Virus record (IMG/VR): IMGVR_UViG_3300036770_002709
Span: 1 to 35,500 of that record
Source: a virus
DNA: 35,500 bases
Reading direction: 5' to 3' (one strand)
Part shown: one piece after another, positions 915 to 31,967 of the stretch
Layout: every line of letters starts with the position of its first letter
Numbering within the stretch: the stretch's first letter is position 1
Position numbers and translations under genes: made by a program
Notes under the pieces: generated by a model
What the model was told of the DNA's origin: nothing
The model's database searches: none
The model's input: only the letters and a program-made list of their open reading frames with translations

Positions 915-1849
915 CTTGTTCCGATTAGAGTTATTTTTAAACCTTTTGCAGTTCCGTCACCGATTTGGTCGATATCAATTGTTATTTCGGCATCATCAGT
1001 TAGTGCGGATGTTGTAATAGTTGCAGGTGTTGTTGCCGTTACAGATGTTTTTGCTGTATTGTCAATAGTTAGCTTTGTGCCGAGAATCGATGATCCTCCC
1101 TCGTTTATGTCAACTGTGAAGATAGAACCTGAAGCCTGAGCTGTAGTAAGCGAAGCACGAACCGAAGTTAGTGTCATAGCATGAGGCATTCTAAAGGTCA
1201 TCTTTGCAGTTCCAGTTGTTAATGCTGTTGTTTCATCGGAGGCAGCTAATTGAATCTCAACTGGCAATCCTGTAAAAACACCTGCATCAGTAATTGTTAA
1301 CCGTGCTAAATTATTTGTTTTTAATATAATATCGCCAGTTCCCTTACCCTCAATTACTATATCAGTATTATTTTGAGAATGTATTAAATCGCAATTATGA
1401 ATTTCTCCGCCAGTCATGTTTAGAGTTTGACCATTGCAATCAATAGAACCAACTGGATTAAGAAATAAATCACCAGTAGATGTAATTTCATTGACATTTA
1501 GAATGTCATTTCCATTCATATCAATATCATTAGCACCTGCCGAATTACCAGCAGTTAAAACCGTCGCTAAATTGTCACCGCTGCCAATTACATCAAAAAA
1601 AAAAGAAGTCGAAAGTAAAGCGACTAAATCAAAAGCATTACCAGAGAAGGCAACTGCAGCGGCTGGCTCAACCTGAGTATTGCTAATCTGACTCGCGAAT
1701 AAAGAATGCCATTGATTAAAACCAAATTTTACAATAACTTCGTCTGTTCCTTTTACATCCAAAGCATTAACATTGACAAAAACCTTTTGAATATTGCCAG
1801 CGGCATCCGTTAAAACGACATTTCCAGTCGATTGTTTAATTATGTTCAT
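911..1849 (-). CDS. Tail-fibre-like beta-rich structural protein
   Basis: A 312-residue protein between the connector and the distal tail-fibre-like gene. The middle (residues 110-190) has short repeats of the type NDIDMNGNDI, GSIDCNGQTL and TDIVIEGKGT, a pattern typical of phage fibre proteins that build beta-helices. The C-terminal 110 residues (from AMTLTSVRAS) resemble a jelly-roll domain common in phage virion proteins. It overlaps the connector gene by four bases. A run of ten T on the coding strand (1595-1604) encodes three Phe in a row and is a likely site of length changes. A fibre or tail-spike role is inferred; no depolymerase catalytic site is apparent. Confidence 0.7.
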   Translation of the reverse strand: MNIIKQSTGNVVLTDAAGNIQKVFVNVNALDVKGTDEVIVKFGFNQWHSLFASQISNTQVEPAAAVAFSGNAFDLVALLSTSFFFDVIGSGDNLATVLTAGNSAGANDIDMNGNDILNVNEITSTGDLFLNPVGSIDCNGQTLNMTGGEIHNCDLIHSQNNTDIVIEGKGTGDIILKTNNLARLTITDAGVFTGLPVEIQLAASDETTALTTGTAKMTFRMPHAMTLTSVRASLTTAQASGSIFTVDINEGGSSILGTKLTIDNTAKTSVTATTPATITTSALTDDAEITIDIDQIGDGTAKGLKITLIGTR

Positions 1850-2484: not shown

Positions 2485-3859
2485 TTTCTATATTTAATTG
2501 CTCTTGTTGAATTTGTTGAAAACCTAACTCCGCACGCATTTCGTCAACCGTCAAAATATCTTTGATCGGAATATCTCCAGCAAAACTTACTGGCATTGGC
2601 TTCGCTATATCGACCGCAATATTAGACCAATCAAAGCCTAACCATTTGCCAGCGTCTTGTATAACTGGATTAAGGAACTTTGTTAAATAAAGCCTTTGCA
2701 TTGGACGAATAACCGTATTATAAACAATATCAAATTCAGATCTTATCTGTTGATTAGTTCCTAAACTTCCAGCCGTTCTTAAGCCAGTGAGCGAAACGGA
2801 CCAGCGATGTGCCGCAATGATATTCGTCTGAGCCATGTTTTGTAAGTTCAAAAATTCGCCCTCGTTACTGCTATTTAAAACCTGAACGTCTGATTTATAG
2901 GTCGGGTCCCTCAAAGCCTGAATAAACATTTTAGAATTATTCCCAGTGCCAGTAAAACATTCTTTCATTGCCCGCACTACTTGCTGAGCTTCCTCTTGAT
3001 TGGCTGAGCCAAAGAGCGAAATAATAGCCGAAGGAGTGAAACCATTTTCGAACTTGCTTTGATTAAATTTCGGAATCCTATATTCGAGTTCCGCCCAGAT
3101 TTTGGCGCTCACCCAGTCAGGAATACCCCAATAAACAAGCGTAGGCTCATAATTTTTCAAGTGAACTATTGACTTTTCAACGCCTCCGATTTTCTCAAAG
3201 ACTGGAAAAATAGGTAAATCAGTCACATTTTGAGGAGTTATCTCCCATGCTTCCTCAAATTCATCTGAAACCCCTATATGAGTGGGATAAATACTATCCT
3301 TTGCAGCTTTTCGAGGTCTGCACCAGTTAATAGGCAGGCAGCGCAAATAATATTTTTTTGTCTGACCTACTTTTATTCTTTGAACTTCGACAAAGGCATT
3401 CCCAAAACTTGCAAAATCTTTACTAATTTTAGCAGTCAACTCCTCAACATTTTCGCCCTCAGGAGTCAAAGCCGTGAGCCATTCATTTAAAGACTGGATC
3501 TGATCCTCTGTTATTTCTGCCGCCTCAGCTTTTGCAGTTTTTAAACTCGCCAGCATTGACATAGTCGAAGCAGGAACAGTATAAAAGCCGTCACCGCCAA
3601 AGTAATTAACTTTTTGCTGAATTATTCCGCTTGTCGTTGGCGAATTATTACAAATAGCCTGCAATCGGTCAAGCCTGCAGAGGTCATAAGTGCTGAAAGG
3701 AACATAATCCCAGACCGTTTTTTGCAAAATGTCCCGAGTCGGCTCTCTGAAAATGTCATCAACTTTAAACGGATTTACACCGAGATTAAGCGAACCCCAT
3801 GCGTAAACGTCTGTTTTTGGCTTATTTTCGCCCGATATAACGACTTTTCTTCTACTCAT
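2459..3859 (-). CDS. Portal protein
   Basis: A 466-residue protein with the layout of a phage portal. Portals form the dodecameric ring at the capsid vertex through which DNA enters and leaves. Supporting segments are LDRLQAICNNSPTTSGIIQQK (helix preceding the stem), AFVEVQR, the HLKNYEP segment that fits the family's receptor-proximal loop, and a C-terminal half with IRPMQRLYLTKFL. Length fits a siphovirus portal. It is preceded by a small gene overlapping it by eight bases and followed by the connector. Unusually it lies downstream of the capsid gene and about 17 kb from the terminase. Confidence 0.8.
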   Translation of the reverse strand: MSRRKVVISGENKPKTDVYAWGSLNLGVNPFKVDDIFREPTRDILQKTVWDYVPFSTYDLCRLDRLQAICNNSPTTSGIIQQKVNYFGGDGFYTVPASTMSMLASLKTAKAEAAEITEDQIQSLNEWLTALTPEGENVEELTAKISKDFASFGNAFVEVQRIKVGQTKKYYLRCLPINWCRPRKAAKDSIYPTHIGVSDEFEEAWEITPQNVTDLPIFPVFEKIGGVEKSIVHLKNYEPTLVYWGIPDWVSAKIWAELEYRIPKFNQSKFENGFTPSAIISLFGSANQEEAQQVVRAMKECFTGTGNNSKMFIQALRDPTYKSDVQVLNSSNEGEFLNLQNMAQTNIIAAHRWSVSLTGLRTAGSLGTNQQIRSEFDIVYNTVIRPMQRLYLTKFLNPVIQDAGKWLGFDWSNIAVDIAKPMPVSFAGDIPIKDILTVDEMRAELGFQQIQQEQLNIENADTNQAS

Positions 3860-5710: not shown

Positions 5711-6481
5711 TTAAACAAGAGTCCAAGTTACTACTAAAGTAATATTTCCTCCGTCACTTACAAAGTTAATATCGCCCGTTTGAGCACCTGCTCCGAGTGT
5801 ACCGTCAGCAACTGCACTAAGTGTATATTTTTGACCTGGATAGATAACGCCTGCAAATTGAGGAAGTGTCGCAGTCAATACGTCAGCAACTGGAGTCGCA
5901 CTTGCAACGGTCAAAACCGTAAAGCCTGTATTATGCAATTCAACTTGAAAAGGAATGTTTGTTCCGTCAGGAAATGAACCTAAATCGATGGAAGTTACAG
6001 CAACTGAACCGCCAACTTCATAAACTGCCAAAACTGGAGCATTTGAAGCAACCGTATCAAGAGTCAAAACACCACCCTCATAACTGAAATTATAAACCAC
6101 TTTGCAATTACAGCTCAATAAGTCTCCTTCGCCAGTTTCCATTACAATCGTAGCAGTCCAATCTGAACCGAGTAAACTTGTAACGTCAACGTCCATAGTC
6201 GGATTGATGCCATTATTAACAACAGTAACAAAATTACCTTTGCCGTCTGTGATTTGCAATTTTACATATTTAAAATCGTAAGCGTCTGTCGGAGCTCCAA
6301 AAGTTAGTTCAGCAATACCCTCAACAACTTCCAAAGAGCCAACAAGTTCAAGTGTACAAGCTCCGCACTCCTCAATTTTTAGTATTTCAGCGTTTGCAGG
6401 GTTTGCAAGTGGATTGGTACGACCGAAGAAATACTCCTCGCTGTTACCCTCCTGATAAAAATTTTCTTTATTGAATGACAT
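5711..6481 (-). CDS. Capsid decoration-like protein with C-terminal Ig-type domain
   Basis: A 256-residue protein between the head protease and the major capsid protein, the usual place of decoration or head-stabilising proteins. The N-terminal half is beta-rich with several Cys (CGACTL, SCNCK). The C-terminal 95 residues look like a bacterial Ig/ASH-type beta-sandwich: IDLGSFPDGT, a VELHNTGFTVLTV strand pair, VIYPGQKYTL and a closing GDINFVSDGG strand. Ig-like domains on virions often display on the capsid surface and bind host polysaccharide weakly. Role inferred from position and fold impression. Confidence 0.6.
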   Translation of the reverse strand: MSFNKENFYQEGNSEEYFFGRTNPLANPANAEILKIEECGACTLELVGSLEVVEGIAELTFGAPTDAYDFKYVKLQITDGKGNFVTVVNNGINPTMDVDVTSLLGSDWTATIVMETGEGDLLSCNCKVVYNFSYEGGVLTLDTVASNAPVLAVYEVGGSVAVTSIDLGSFPDGTNIPFQVELHNTGFTVLTVASATPVADVLTATLPQFAGVIYPGQKYTLSAVADGTLGAGAQTGDINFVSDGGNITLVVTWTLV

Positions 6482-6487
6482 TTTATA

Positions 6488-7462
6488 TTAGTTTTTGATA
6501 AGTGAGTTAATAAATTTTGATGCCTGCAAAATCTGGTCCTGAGTGAAACCGATTTCAGCAGTTTTTTCTGCTTTTACATCACTTTTATAGCTAATTTTCG
6601 CCTGAATTTCAGCTTCAAGTGCTTCGAGTTTGAGTTGTTTTTCTTCGAGCTGTTTGTCCAGAGCCTCGATTTTAGCCAACATTTCGGCTGTATCGTCGGT
6701 CTTTACTTCCTCTTTTACTTCAATGGCTGGCTCTTCGGCTTTTTCCTCAACAATGGCAGCCGTTTCGACTTCCTGCTCAGTTATTTCAGCTTTAAAACCA
6801 AACATCGCAGCGAGTTGCTGAAGAAAAGTCTTTTTTTCAACTTGCATACTGTTTTTGATTTGATTTGGAATGTTTTTAAATTTTGCCTCCGCTCTAATCA
6901 TTGCGTAGGTTTCTTCATATATAGAGTTTTCGTTTGTTTTCTCTTCGACAATCATGTCGATAAAACCCATTTCGAGCGCTTCCTCTGCCGTGAGCCAAGT
7001 TTCAGCCGACATCATTTTTTTAACTTCCTCTAAAGTCTTTTCTTTGCTGCCTCCGATTAACTTTCCTTTGCTTTCGAGCTGAGCCGTATAAATTGCAGCC
7101 ATCTGCTCGTCAAACATTCTCAAAAGCTCGATAGTCTTTTCAAGTTCAAATACGTTCCCTTCAACTCCGCCCCAAGAATTATGCATCATAAAAAAGGAGT
7201 TTTTAGTCATTTCCTTTTTCTTTCCTGCCATTAGTATGATAGTCGCAGCGCTGGCAACAATCCCGATGCCTCTCGTTGTGGTTTTACCTGGATACAAAGC
7301 AATCATTTCAGATATTGCCATGCCTTCGATAATAGAACCTCCAGAACTTGATATATTGATAAGCACGTCCTGACCGCCTGCATCGTTTAACGCCTTTTTG
7401 ACCGAGTCTTTCGTCTCAGTATCTTTGCTGCCAATTGTGCCGAAAATGTTTAATTCAAACAT
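6488..7462 (-). CDS. ClpP-like head maturation protease with scaffold-like C-terminus
   Basis: A 324-residue protein opening the head operon. The N-terminal 190 residues form a ClpP/S14 serine protease domain: ISSSGGSIIEGMAI, the nucleophile Ser71 in GIVASAATIILMAG and His94 in FMMHNSWGG. In phages this domain trims capsid precursors. The C-terminal part (about 215-290) is a Glu/Lys-rich coiled coil, as in protease-scaffold fusions; no separate scaffold gene is present, so this tail may supply that function. It is followed at once by the decoration and capsid genes. A promoter lies just upstream at 7481-7513, giving a very short leader. Confidence 0.85.
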   Translation of the reverse strand: MFELNIFGTIGSKDTETKDSVKKALNDAGGQDVLINISSSGGSIIEGMAISEMIALYPGKTTTRGIGIVASAATIILMAGKKKEMTKNSFFMMHNSWGGVEGNVFELEKTIELLRMFDEQMAAIYTAQLESKGKLIGGSKEKTLEEVKKMMSAETWLTAEEALEMGFIDMIVEEKTNENSIYEETYAMIRAEAKFKNIPNQIKNSMQVEKKTFLQQLAAMFGFKAEITEQEVETAAIVEEKAEEPAIEVKEEVKTDDTAEMLAKIEALDKQLEEKQLKLEALEAEIQAKISYKSDVKAEKTAEIGFTQDQILQASKFINSLIKN

Positions 7463-13600: not shown

Positions 13601-14009
13601 TTTGAAATTGTCCGACCTGACCGTCAACATTTTTAAGAGTTTTGTCGAGTTGTTGGATCTCTTTTTGCATTGCATCCAGCTCAGCAGTCGTTTTCGAGCC
13701 ATCAAGAGCCGCATTTTTAAACTCTTTGCGGAGTTTATTAAGTTTTGCGCTTAGTGCATCATAAGCTCCGACCGCTTTTTCTGGCAAAAACGACTTATTT
13801 ACATCGTCCTGAGCCTTTTTTAGCGCCTTTTGCTGAGCCGTCATTTTGCCCAAAGTCTGACTAAGCTCCTGAAACGCTTTATTGCCCTCTTCCGTGCTAA
13901 GGTCAAGCGCATTCATTGCCGCCTGAGTCTGCTTAATTTCGGCATTTAGTTGGTTTATTGACTGAATACCGTCAATATTTATAGTAAAACCGACTATTGT
14001 GTTTGACAT
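10653..14009 (-). CDS. Tail tape measure protein
   Basis: The longest gene, 1118 residues. It has the usual layout of a tape measure protein, which fills the tail tube and sets its length: a helical N-terminus, a GLFLILAKLIDIF hydrophobic region near residue 345, further hydrophobic stretches around 395-425, a very long Lys/Glu/Ala/Gln-rich coiled coil (about 500-860), a hydrophobic segment near 970-1010 (AGAIAVGIAGAAQ) and a C-terminal part with YSTLKAARIPNFAMGG. By the family rule of about 1.5 angstrom per residue the tail would be roughly 165 nm. It follows two large tail proteins with one base between it and the preceding gene. Confidence 0.9.
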   Translation of the reverse strand: MSNTIVGFTINIDGIQSINQLNAEIKQTQAAMNALDLSTEEGNKAFQELSQTLGKMTAQQKALKKAQDDVNKSFLPEKAVGAYDALSAKLNKLRKEFKNAALDGSKTTAELDAMQKEIQQLDKTLKNVDGQVGQFQRNVGNYPKTLSRVTRSLLQTVPGFEAFNSTLRDGEGRLTGFGKALIGGFVAFQAARLIGQAMKRLDEFISKINETRETVAEFSGAYGEDLDKLTASTTALADTFDTDAKTISKAAEALSKQLGIGFEDALLKLEGALVEGQGNADDYLNNIAEFPAAFQAASGSVTEFSERNKSLLNTNKELAASQVEVAKKLQGVNDTFKSAGKAVETGLFLILAKLIDIFRPVGEAFSRLGQSLAGLFAIFNKGGEQTSIFSKILSALSFPLEVLASFLQIAADGIAYLIKGITDFIGQSPFLQSVFEQISNAISSVNDGFRNLPAVFSGVVAALKQLGTNFVNFFQSLFLDAQIFAEQVKGVFGANVQSAIDDLRRRRAEANKDQGSLQDAFNKAYEESKKKSDAKREEDAKKAAKKIVKVDQDANNAAIKSAQDAAKKLAEDRAKFQEDEVKQARQRAALLADLSAKAIEERIKNIQDGYEREVAEINNNFEKQKADLKKQYDDLVIAAKEREAELIKTFGANSAEVLKVQKENAIQLQAVAQAQATILIQYEQQKTDALKKVNEEQRLSEVQKAKEQVEKLKELRDMALSSEIDYIEQQGELRQLKNQETLNKLLSQEKDAKKKEQLIKLAAEQEIIDNIANIRNQIQALNDAEAQLLDENGKLKVGITQAEYDEILLARQKLFTDLSEEEKKQTEDVKKNADEQAKIKQDQFNQVLEYFNEGIGLIGDAFKVANERQQAAFDADIERSQLRQEKLQEELENSTGLRRRFYQEQLDAEIANQAAIEKAREESAKRAAKKEKAIAIIQSIINTALAVTRAFATSGIAGAIAVGIAGAAQTAIIAAQPLAKGGVVGKGDEIVQFADGGKVTSRGNIKPLSNGDNVLATLKTGEVVLNQEQQRRIGYSTLKAARIPNFAMGGVVGAPSAFLQDSLNKVSEEQSRFKVMQDLVLETQGRIDRLQVVYTASTDDDVEKGRNERKEIRATASF

Positions 14010-30575: not shown

Positions 30576-31412
30576 TTAGAAAATTTTATAATTTAAAGGT
30601 TTAGGTATGTAGCTATTTTCAGAGTTTGCATTAACATTATAAGTTTTTTTCTTAATTTGAGATTGTGTTAAATAATTTTCAAATTTTGACTTTCTGAATA
30701 ATGTTGAGGGTACTAAGTATTTGCACATTTTTTCGTCCGAAATCCATTCATTATATTTTACATCTATTACCGACATTAAAGCATCTGGAGTATTTCCGTC
30801 TTTTAAAATTTCTAAAATTAAAATGTAGTTCTTATATTTTTTTAAGGTTTTGACATCTTTCGGTATGTTGTATTTTACGTCTGTCTTTTCAGATAGGTAG
30901 TTAAGCACTTGACAAAACTCATGATAATATTCTAAATCTTCAACACTAATTTTTTTATGAGAGGGAGAGAGTTTTTTTTCTTTTTTCTCTTTATTTATAA
31001 TTGTATTATTAGTTGTATTACTAATTGTATTTATATGTTCATTTTTTTGTGAACCCTGAGTTAATGTTTTTGTGAAGTCTGAGTTCATATTTTTATGAAC
31101 CCTGCTTTCATATTTTTGTGAAGTCTGACTTAATATTTTTGTTAAGTCTGGATTCAAACTTACATATCTTTTTCTACCATCAAAACCCTTTTTAATGATA
31201 TATCCTTTATTTATTAGCTTAACAATCATATTGGCCATTGAACCCTCTGAAACCTGTACAAACTTTGCTAAATATTCATTTGAGGCAAAACAACCCTGAC
31301 CGTTTTGGTCTAAGCTGTCAATTTCGATAAGCAATATTTTTTCTGCCCAGCTTAATGTTTCATTTAAAAATATTTCTTTAGGTATCCATACCCCTTTAAA
31401 ATCTCTTTCCAT
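30576..31412 (-). CDS. DnaD-like replication initiator with internal iterons
   Basis: A 278-residue protein. Residues 1-90 form a winged helix-turn-helix (helix_36 type: LSWAEKILLIEIDSL, NEYLAKFVQVSEGSMANMI, KGYIIKKGFDGRKRYV). Residues 86-125 are encoded by five tandem 23-nt repeats, followed by an Asn/Thr/Lys-rich linker. Residues 162-252 match the phage conserved C-terminal domain (Phg_2220_C): VLNYLSEKTDV, DALMSVIDVKYNEW and YLVPSTLFRKSKFENYL. The protein probably binds the repeats inside its own gene. It is AT-rich and preceded by a pseudoknot leader. Confidence 0.8.
   Translation of the reverse strand: MERDFKGVWIPKEIFLNETLSWAEKILLIEIDSLDQNGQGCFASNEYLAKFVQVSEGSMANMIVKLINKGYIIKKGFDGRKRYVSLNPDLTKILSQTSQKYESRVHKNMNSDFTKTLTQGSQKNEHINTISNTTNNTIINKEKKEKKLSPSHKKISVEDLEYYHEFCQVLNYLSEKTDVKYNIPKDVKTLKKYKNYILILEILKDGNTPDALMSVIDVKYNEWISDEKMCKYLVPSTLFRKSKFENYLTQSQIKKKTYNVNANSENSYIPKPLNYKIF
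31000..31035. repeat. Three AT-rich 12-mers, candidate unwinding element
   Basis: Three consecutive 12-base units, ATTGTATTATTA, GTTGTATTACTA and ATTGTATTTATA, lie four bases from the iteron array. Their arrangement beside iterons is that of a DNA unwinding element such as the 13-mers of bacterial origins. Confidence 0.55.
31040..31154. repeat. Five tandem 23-bp iterons, candidate replication origin
   Basis: Units start at 31040, 31063, 31086, 31109 and 31132. On the minus strand the core is CAGRSTTCACAAAAATAT with few changes. Because 23 is not a multiple of three, each unit is read in a different frame, so the repeat is conserved as DNA, not as protein. It lies inside the initiator gene, as in lambda O. 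Confidence 0.75.
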
Positions 31413-31428
31413 ATTGATATAAATAAAA

Positions 31429-31525
31429 AACCCGAAACAATTCTTTAGAGGTAGTGGCTCTATTGAACTGAAACGGGTTGTATGAAATATTTCTTATCGT
31501 TGTACATTTATGATTTGACCACTAC
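31429..31525 (-). promoter_or_regulatory. Structured leader RNA, predicted pseudoknot (copy B)
   Basis: The minus-strand RNA, 5' to 3', has GUAGUGG (31525-31519), AACCCG (31479-31474), CCACUAC (31457-31451) and CGGGUU (31434-31429). The arms pair first with third and second with fourth, which is an H-type pseudoknot. A UUUU/AUUU tract follows, and the initiator start codon lies 16 bases on. Copy A at 31822-31915 has the same order and similar loop lengths. This fills the 195-base gap 31413-31607 together with its promoter. Confidence 0.65.
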
Positions 31526-31560
31526 TTCAAAACACAAACGTTGTTTTTTCCTTTCGAATA

Positions 31561-31592
31561 CAAAAATATAAAAAACATCTAAATAAAAAAAC
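31561..31592 (-). promoter_or_regulatory. Promoter of initiator-loader operon
   Basis: The minus strand has GTTTTTTT and, 24 nt from its G, TATTTTTG (31561-31568). The upstream part AAAAGTTTTTTTATTTAGAT is nearly the same as at the next promoter, 31936-31967. The transcript would begin shortly before the pseudoknot. Confidence 0.6.
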
Positions 31593-31607
31593 TTTTAATG
31601 ATGTTTT

Positions 31608-31805
31608 TTAAAACAAAGTTAATTGAACGCTTTTTGTAATTATCTCTTTTTCTGGAACTAAAAAAGCCTTATATCCAAAATTAACACTATACCAAGTTAT
31701 AGTCTTTGTCCTGTTCTCAAAACCTATATAATCTATAATACCCTCAATTATTTTACCGTCATAATCTTGATATAAAACCTTTTCGCCAATGTTATATTTT
31801 GCCAT
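31608..31805 (-). CDS. Small SH3-like protein with pseudoknot leader
   Basis: A 65-residue protein with a strand-rich layout (YNIGEKVLYQDYDGKIIEGIID, then WYSVNFGYKAFLVPEKEI), like small SH3 or Tudor-type barrels. No family can be named. Its 5' leader is the pseudoknot copy A with its own promoter, so it is regulated in parallel with the initiator. It lies between the primase-like gene and the initiator. Confidence 0.6.
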   Translation of the reverse strand: MAKYNIGEKVLYQDYDGKIIEGIIDYIGFENRTKTITWYSVNFGYKAFLVPEKEIITKSVQLTLF

Positions 31806-31821
31806 AGTTATATAAATTAAA

Positions 31822-31915
31822 AACCCGAAATAATCTCCAGCGGTGGACGTCGCCTTTGATTAAATCGGGTTATACCTTATTTTATGAATACTATCGAATT
31901 TAGGTTCGCGTCCAC
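31822..31915 (-). promoter_or_regulatory. Structured leader RNA, predicted pseudoknot (copy A)
   Basis: The minus-strand RNA has GUGGACG (31915-31909), AACCCGA (31871-31865), CGUCCAC (31849-31843) and UCGGGUU (31828-31822), interleaved as an H-type pseudoknot. Relative to copy B, three of the seven pairs of the first helix change on both strands and still pair. The second helix is conserved. A U run follows and the start codon lies 16 bases on. This and its promoter fill the gap 31806-31976. Confidence 0.65.
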
Positions 31916-31935
31916 TCAAACGTAAATTCTATGCA

Positions 31936-31967
31936 CAAATATAGAAAAATTATCTTAATAAAAAAAC
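31936..31967 (-). promoter_or_regulatory. Promoter of the pseudoknot A unit
   Basis: The minus strand has GTTTTTTTATT and, 24 nt from its G, TATATTTG (31936-31943). Transcription would begin about 15 bases before the first pseudoknot arm, so the RNA element would sit at the very 5' end of the message. Confidence 0.6.

Follow-up and report, generated by a model that had tools for sequence, protein, structure and literature searches.

Kissing-hairpin leaders, candidate transcription attenuators, ahead of replication-initiation genes in Bacteroidota phages

Known leader RNAs and the phage locus

In the Staphylococcus plasmid pT181, a kissing interaction in the leader of repC is linked to an intrinsic terminator that precedes the gene (PMC3753616); the leader kisses an antisense RNA made separately. 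In the initiator leaders of IncI-alpha repZ and IncL/M repA, the loop of a 5' hairpin pairs over a long range with a downstream segment; the pseudoknot so formed opens translation of the initiator and an antisense RNA blocks it. In phage HK022, two copies of put (putL and putR), a two-hairpin RNA of about 70 nt, lie just downstream of the early promoters PL and PR and bind the zinc-binding domain of the polymerase (PMC9378689). Kissing-loop aptamers such as the purine riboswitch also place two hairpins with loop-loop pairing upstream of an expression platform. The parts, namely attenuators, kissing loops and initiator leaders, are already known from pT181, IncI/IncL-M and HK022 put.

The window, i.e., the whole stretch analyzed here, is an entire IMG/VR virus record of 35.5 kb. 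Its terminase and Erf-type proteins point to an uncultured tailed phage of Bacteroidota. Two neighboring genes on the minus strand, for a 278-aa initiator and a 65-aa protein, are each preceded by a separate leader (copies 1 and 2). Their features, all on the minus strand, are as follows.

30576..31412: gene of the 278-aa replication initiator with HTH_36 and Phg_2220_C (Pfam and PHROGs); start codon at 31412
31541-31413: leader 1
31561..31568: promoter -7 element of leader 1, TATTTTTG, an upstream match to TAnnTTTG
31504..31541: hairpin 1 of leader 1, ACGTTTGTG/CATAAATGT and TTTGA/TCAAA with an 8-nt loop AGTAGTGG (predicted fold; stem pairs covary among relatives)
31519..31525: kissing arm a of leader 1, GTAGTGG (31525-31519), in the loop of hairpin 1, complementary to 31457-31451
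31429..31479: hairpin 2 of leader 1, AACCCG/CGGGTT (arms b, 31479-31474, and b', 31434-31429), CAGTTC/GAATTG and TAGAG/CTCTA with loop CCACTAC (arm a', 31457-31451) (predicted fold and covariation)
31425..31430: U tract of leader 1, terminator-like, immediately 3' of hairpin 2 (from the sequence)
31608..31805: gene of the 65-aa protein of unknown function, with no Pfam or PHROGs match; start codon at 31805
31929-31806: leader 2
31936..31943: promoter -7 element of leader 2, TATATTTG (TAnnTTTG); hairpin 1 starts 14 nt past the start of the element
31896..31929: hairpin 1 of leader 2, GAATTTA/TAAATTC and GTTTG/CGAAC with loop AGTGGACG (predicted fold; near-identical stem in L217, L223 and L366-L369)
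31909..31915: kissing arm a of leader 2, GTGGACG (31915-31909), complementary to 31849-31843
31822..31871: hairpin 2 of leader 2, AACCCGA/TCGGGTT (including arms b AACCCG, 31871-31866, and b' CGGGTT, 31827-31822), TAATC/GATTA and GGCG/CGCT with loop ACGTCCAC (arm a' CGTCCAC, 31849-31843) (predicted fold and covariation)
31819..31823: U tract of leader 2 (from the sequence)

The initial annotation had described four arms in the order a-b-a'-b' in both leaders, and we located each arm, spacing and compensated change as claimed. Helix a differs between the copies at three of seven positions, all three changes being compensated. The gaps between successive arms (39, 16 and 16 nt in copy 1; 37, 16 and 15 nt in copy 2) agree within two bases, and b' ends 16 nt before the ATG in both copies. 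The matching promoters reported upstream of both leaders correspond to the Bacteroidota -7 element.

These arms had been taken for an H-type pseudoknot; the topology of a minimal knot of this kind, with unstructured loops, is not what we found. When each half was folded alone, arm a formed the 8-nt apical loop of a 5' hairpin and arm a' the apical loop of a second hairpin of three stem segments, with b/b' at its base. Because both arms are apical loops of covarying hairpins, helix a-a' is read as a kissing-loop helix, and the predicted structure is an intramolecular kissing-hairpin pair, larger than a plain H-type knot. A run of U5-U8 directly after the AACCCG/CGGGTT base makes the second hairpin terminator-like. 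Compared with shuffled sequences, hairpin 2 alone has a fold z of -5.7 in copy 1 and -4.3 in copy 2. After only 6 bp its base stem gives way to an internal loop, and it goes unreported in a standard scan for short-loop terminators. Unlike the purine riboswitch, the element has neither a third helix nor a junction with conserved ligand-binding nucleotides, and no Rfam match.

Homologues, covariation and chance

Homologues were collected from IMG/VR by pattern scans and then by a loop-complementarity screen. Group A (L018/L097, L047, L091, L217 and L223) has Bacteroidota promoters and is a firm Bacteroidota-phage group. Group B (L096, L202, L209, L216, L225 and L228) has TATAAT promoters and SDs, and its neighbor proteins resemble those of Alteromonas/Idiomarina phages. 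Group C (L014, L036, L040, L104 and L106) consists of phages with a P22-like portal, and L034 is a possible single-member group D. The architecture of the gammaproteobacterial-type groups is like that of group A; common descent with it is unproven and the likeness may be convergent. Since a model built on group A only ranks group B no better than decoys, we do not claim shared descent of these two groups.

Several homologues were found independently of the loops. A covariance model without the kissing pairs revealed a second element in the L216 record at 1621-1720 (minus strand), with a base stem AGCCCGC/GCGGGTT and loops CTGCTAGA/TCTAGCAG. Scans with the hairpin-1 stem, which left the loops free and demanded neither hairpin 2 nor a U tract, yielded L364, L366, L367, L368 and L369, and each of the five has a hairpin 2 with U6-U8 behind its stem, and loops that are complementary. 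The base stem of L364 differs (AACCG../..CGGTT, AACCGTTAAAT/ATTTAACGGTT) and the U tract is retained. The sole unrelated match of these scans, L365, shows none of these features. Finally, L081 was among the best new matches of the group-A-only model, which likewise omitted the kissing pairs (E = 0.009), beside the decoy L226. Its promoter is TATCTTTG, its hairpin loops TTGTGCGG and CGCACA are complementary over 6 nt, and genes for a Lin1244_N initiator and a DnaB helicase lie downstream. In the homologues obtained from the 5' stem alone or with the loop-blind model, the loops are still complementary and a U tract follows a GC-rich stem.

It should be mentioned that L081 also contains, downstream of the DnaB gene at 3249-3454 (minus strand), a match to group II intron D1-D4 (RF02001, 62.9 bits) in a Bacteroidota phage. 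The two terminator-like matches in L226 were rejected, the 8-nt loop pairing being absent. A leader in L226 at 13801-13913 (minus strand) has a terminator-like hairpin ahead of an SD, and a stretch inside this hairpin is complementary over 12 nt to the 5' part of the leader (GCCTTAAAGAAA/TTTCTTTAAGGC); this is possibly another kind of knotted leader.

The further covarying homologues expected from a covariance-model check were found in IMG/VR, and 18 sequences were aligned by hand with N padding; MAFFT alone misaligned hairpin 1. Over 36 pairs, 92.5% of the cells are paired, double changes occur in 31 of the 36 pairs (22.2 in shuffles), and the covariation score is 0.664 (0.177 in shuffles); sliding the structure by one column destroys the signal. 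The kissing helix is 100% paired in the 18 relatives, a perfect pairing that is partly circular, part of the set having been picked by loop complementarity and the AACCCG stem. Double changes affect seven of its eight pairs, and all variable kissing pairs change with compensation. A structure descriptor gave 17 distinct matches in 6.9 Mb of real sequence vs. one in 34.7 Mb of dinucleotide-shuffled sequence; the searches had favored loci with such stems among the fetched 6.9 Mb, and the shuffles are therefore the guide to chance. The expectation for the window is about 0.002 matches, and two adjacent ones were found.

Judged by sequence comparison, the loop complementarity exceeds chance, and incidental loop pairing is refuted. 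The phage contigs recovered by the pattern scans commonly have terminator-like stems ahead of SDs, as would be expected if the elements were ordinary terminators of the upstream unit whose loops happen to match. Such an explanation is extremely improbable, given that a promoter separates the upstream gene from the element, that the loop changes are compensated and that the descriptor favors real over shuffled sequence.

As the initial annotation had supposed, the RNA matches no named family: in Rfam 15, no family reached the gathering cut-off on the element in the window and eleven relatives, and at E<=10 only chance matches appeared. A search with the initiator gave no relatives, and blastn of both leaders and the group B and C RNAs against phage records gave chance matches only. 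The element is absent by descriptor from eight named phages with related proteins (XX1924, 1N2-2, PB15, CGphi29, Fpv5, 1/32, MW202475 and MW202483), and in five of them also by model R2. Nothing convincing was found in 395 Bacteroidota, 369 gammaproteobacterial-class and 296 flavobacterial-order genomes, searches in which few candidates per genome were scored and sensitivity was low; three weak matches from them (L374-L376) lack kissing loops. A first IMG/VR pattern, with TTTATAT, gave six matches, all unrelated terminators. Many-copy matches in Metabacillus (L118-L189) represent a dispersed genomic repeat with ends AACCCGAATTATTAGGTG...CGGGTTTTT, many copies per genome and no relation to the leader. 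We found no pairing of a terminator hairpin loop with a hairpin loop of the same leader in Rfam or in searches of the open-access literature, and the RNA element appears to be undescribed.

Gene context and possible modes of control

The group-A elements lie between a TAnnTTTG promoter and a replication-initiation operon. The initiators tested (six homologues and that of the window) all belong to replication-initiation families, and these families (HTH_36/Phg_2220_C, O-like and Lin1244_N) are mutually unrelated. In group B, the leaders are followed by a Rha regulator and by small or unnamed genes. L009 encodes a 75%-identical relative of the 65-aa protein inside an operon that lacks the leader; therefore, the RNA is not tied to this gene. 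The group-A phage records (34-38 kb) contain one element each and the window phage two. By gene order, copy 2 is the positional orthologue, since it follows the Erf-151-aa block like the elements of L217 and L223, and copy 1 is the extra one.

The proposal that the leaders are a cis-regulatory RNA is supported as regards a covarying, cis-acting leader. Its second part, co-regulation of both genes, perhaps by the initiator, is not supported: the group-A relatives are single-copy, and the RNA precedes unrelated initiator families and elsewhere non-initiator genes. For the same reason, a specific initiator-RNA contact and autogenous control by the initiator are unlikely.

The promoter element was found upstream in the sense direction in all nine group-A leaders checked and in the antisense direction in none (0/9), other consensus matches being not conserved. 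Classical antisense control is therefore unlikely, no promoter being seen for an antisense RNA across hairpin 1 such as that of pT181. Moreover, the loops of the two window copies differ and do not cross-pair, which argues against one shared trans-acting RNA. The L216 contig also carries two elements with different loops (1621-1720, minus strand, and 6434-6536, plus strand), which head divergently transcribed regions. There is no conserved leader peptide: the short ORFs in copy 1, L018, L091, L081 and L096 differ in sequence and position and are absent elsewhere. In this respect, and in showing no antisense promoter, the leaders differ from those of IncI/IncL-M.

We favor the view, with a probability of roughly 0.5, that the elements form the 5' leaders of early phage transcripts and attenuate their transcription, possibly with coupling to translation. 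The RNA would start at or near hairpin 1, and hairpin 2 would form as the polymerase proceeds. The base of hairpin 2 with its U5-U8 would serve as an intrinsic terminator just before the ribosome-binding region, and pairing of the apical loops over 6-8 bp would dock this terminator onto the 5' hairpin. Some transcripts would end there, giving an RNA of about 110 nt, and others would read through into the gene, so that the replication initiator or the first early protein is kept low or delayed. Termination itself and a role of docking in setting its efficiency are what we infer from this layout; a switch, if any, might be polymerase speed, host Nus factors or a phage factor.

We rate attenuation as likeliest because a GC stem with a U tract sits between promoter and start codon, and because the U tract persists in homologues found without requiring it. 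The anatomy of promoter, structured leader, terminator-like hairpin and downstream gene is conserved in groups A and B. As in pT181 repC, loop-loop pairing occurs in a replication-initiator leader, but the kissing partner is the loop of the terminator-like hairpin in the same RNA. The GC stem with U5-U8 is conserved between promoter and initiator start codon, where pT181 has its intrinsic terminator, and is uncalled by the short-loop scan. Against attenuation, the loop-loop contact is compatible with a closed stem, so that a route to altered termination is not evident. Inspection by eye revealed no competing antiterminator helix, and hence no sign of a classical two-state attenuator. The group B linker has only about 7 nt, which makes full stems and kissing at once sterically tight.

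Elsewhere in the window, at 7640-7440 (minus strand), a promoter-like TATATTTG stands about 45 nt ahead of a canonical terminator, GGCTGCTATC-cttaactg-GGTAGCAGTT plus U8 (7554-7527), which lies about 65 nt before the start (7462) of a ClpP-like gene at the head of the structural operon. The phage has here a third succession of promoter, terminator and gene, one that lacks kissing loops.

The short fixed distance to the start codon would also suit translational control, in which the kissing pair would govern how readily ribosomes reach the start region, 16 nt further on. Group A leaders precede replication initiators, and initiator translation activated by a pseudoknot is known from plasmids (work cited in PMC10724649); in some members, the A-rich linker is predicted to pair with the U tract. 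In IncI-alpha and IncL/M, as here, a 5' hairpin loop pairs with a downstream segment, but here the second partner is a terminator-like hairpin. The element leaves the start codon and, in group B, the SD uncovered; translational control would not require conservation of the U tract, and neither an antisense RNA nor a leader ORF is conserved. We regard this reading as unlikely, though second to attenuation.

The position of hairpin 1 bears on a further alternative, a 5'-terminal stability element whose docked hairpins shield the mRNA from 5'-end-dependent decay. Hairpin 1 starts 14-15 nt past the start of the -7 element, at about the transcription start, in six of the nine group-A leaders including copy 2, and directly behind TATAAT in group B. 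Its distance from the start site is, however, about 20-50 nt in copy 1 and L091, and shielding would leave the loop pairing and the U tract unexplained, which makes it improbable and places it third.

Two hairpins immediately downstream of promoters, in two copies in the window phage and two divergent ones in the L216 phage, recall HK022 put and a cis-acting antiterminator RNA that works on the polymerase. As far as the cited sections of PMC9378689 go, the likeness in sequence and structure stops at the two hairpins: put contains a triplex, its description mentions no loop-loop helix, and the covarying loop-loop helix and U tract have no counterpart there. An RNA of this kind is very improbable, as the element ends in a U tract and no nucleotides are strongly conserved outside the base stem.

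Loop diversity and biological meaning

Between near-identical leaders (copy 2 and L217 vs. L223 and L366), the loops differ at three of seven and three of eight positions, the hairpin-1 stem at none of 22, and the rest by 9-11%; for this contrast p is 0.004-0.01, computed on single, non-independent pairs. Where copy 2 has GTGGACG, L223 and L366 have GTAGCAG/CTGCTAC. The same pattern for hairpin 1 is observed in L096 and the second L216 element. Such block-wise differences hint at selection that favors loop divergence, or at an exchange of blocks.

A variable loop on a fixed stem and different loops in paralogues within one phage (the window; L216) hint that loops could be specificity tags under diversifying selection, the terminated leader RNA pairing in trans and sensing its own dose. 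We consider this doubtful. If true, related phages or a second copy would be told apart, and phages would have, in RNA form, an analogue of the copy control and incompatibility of plasmids.

In the P22-like contigs of group C, all from one metagenome, a near-identical kissing-hairpin unit of about 90 nt with loop GGTGCAAC is found between different flanks, as would be expected of a mobile or exchanged unit. In L014 and L104, a tRNA-like stretch, for which ARAGORN gives no call, precedes it.

The element recurs ahead of unrelated replication-initiation families in Bacteroidota phages, about whose post-transcriptional control little is known, and has look-alikes in other phages. A terminator hairpin that docks its own loop on an upstream hairpin would, if true, be an unusual attenuator layout. 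The natural, compensated diversity of the loops makes it directly testable and offers a potential set of orthogonal RNA regulators.
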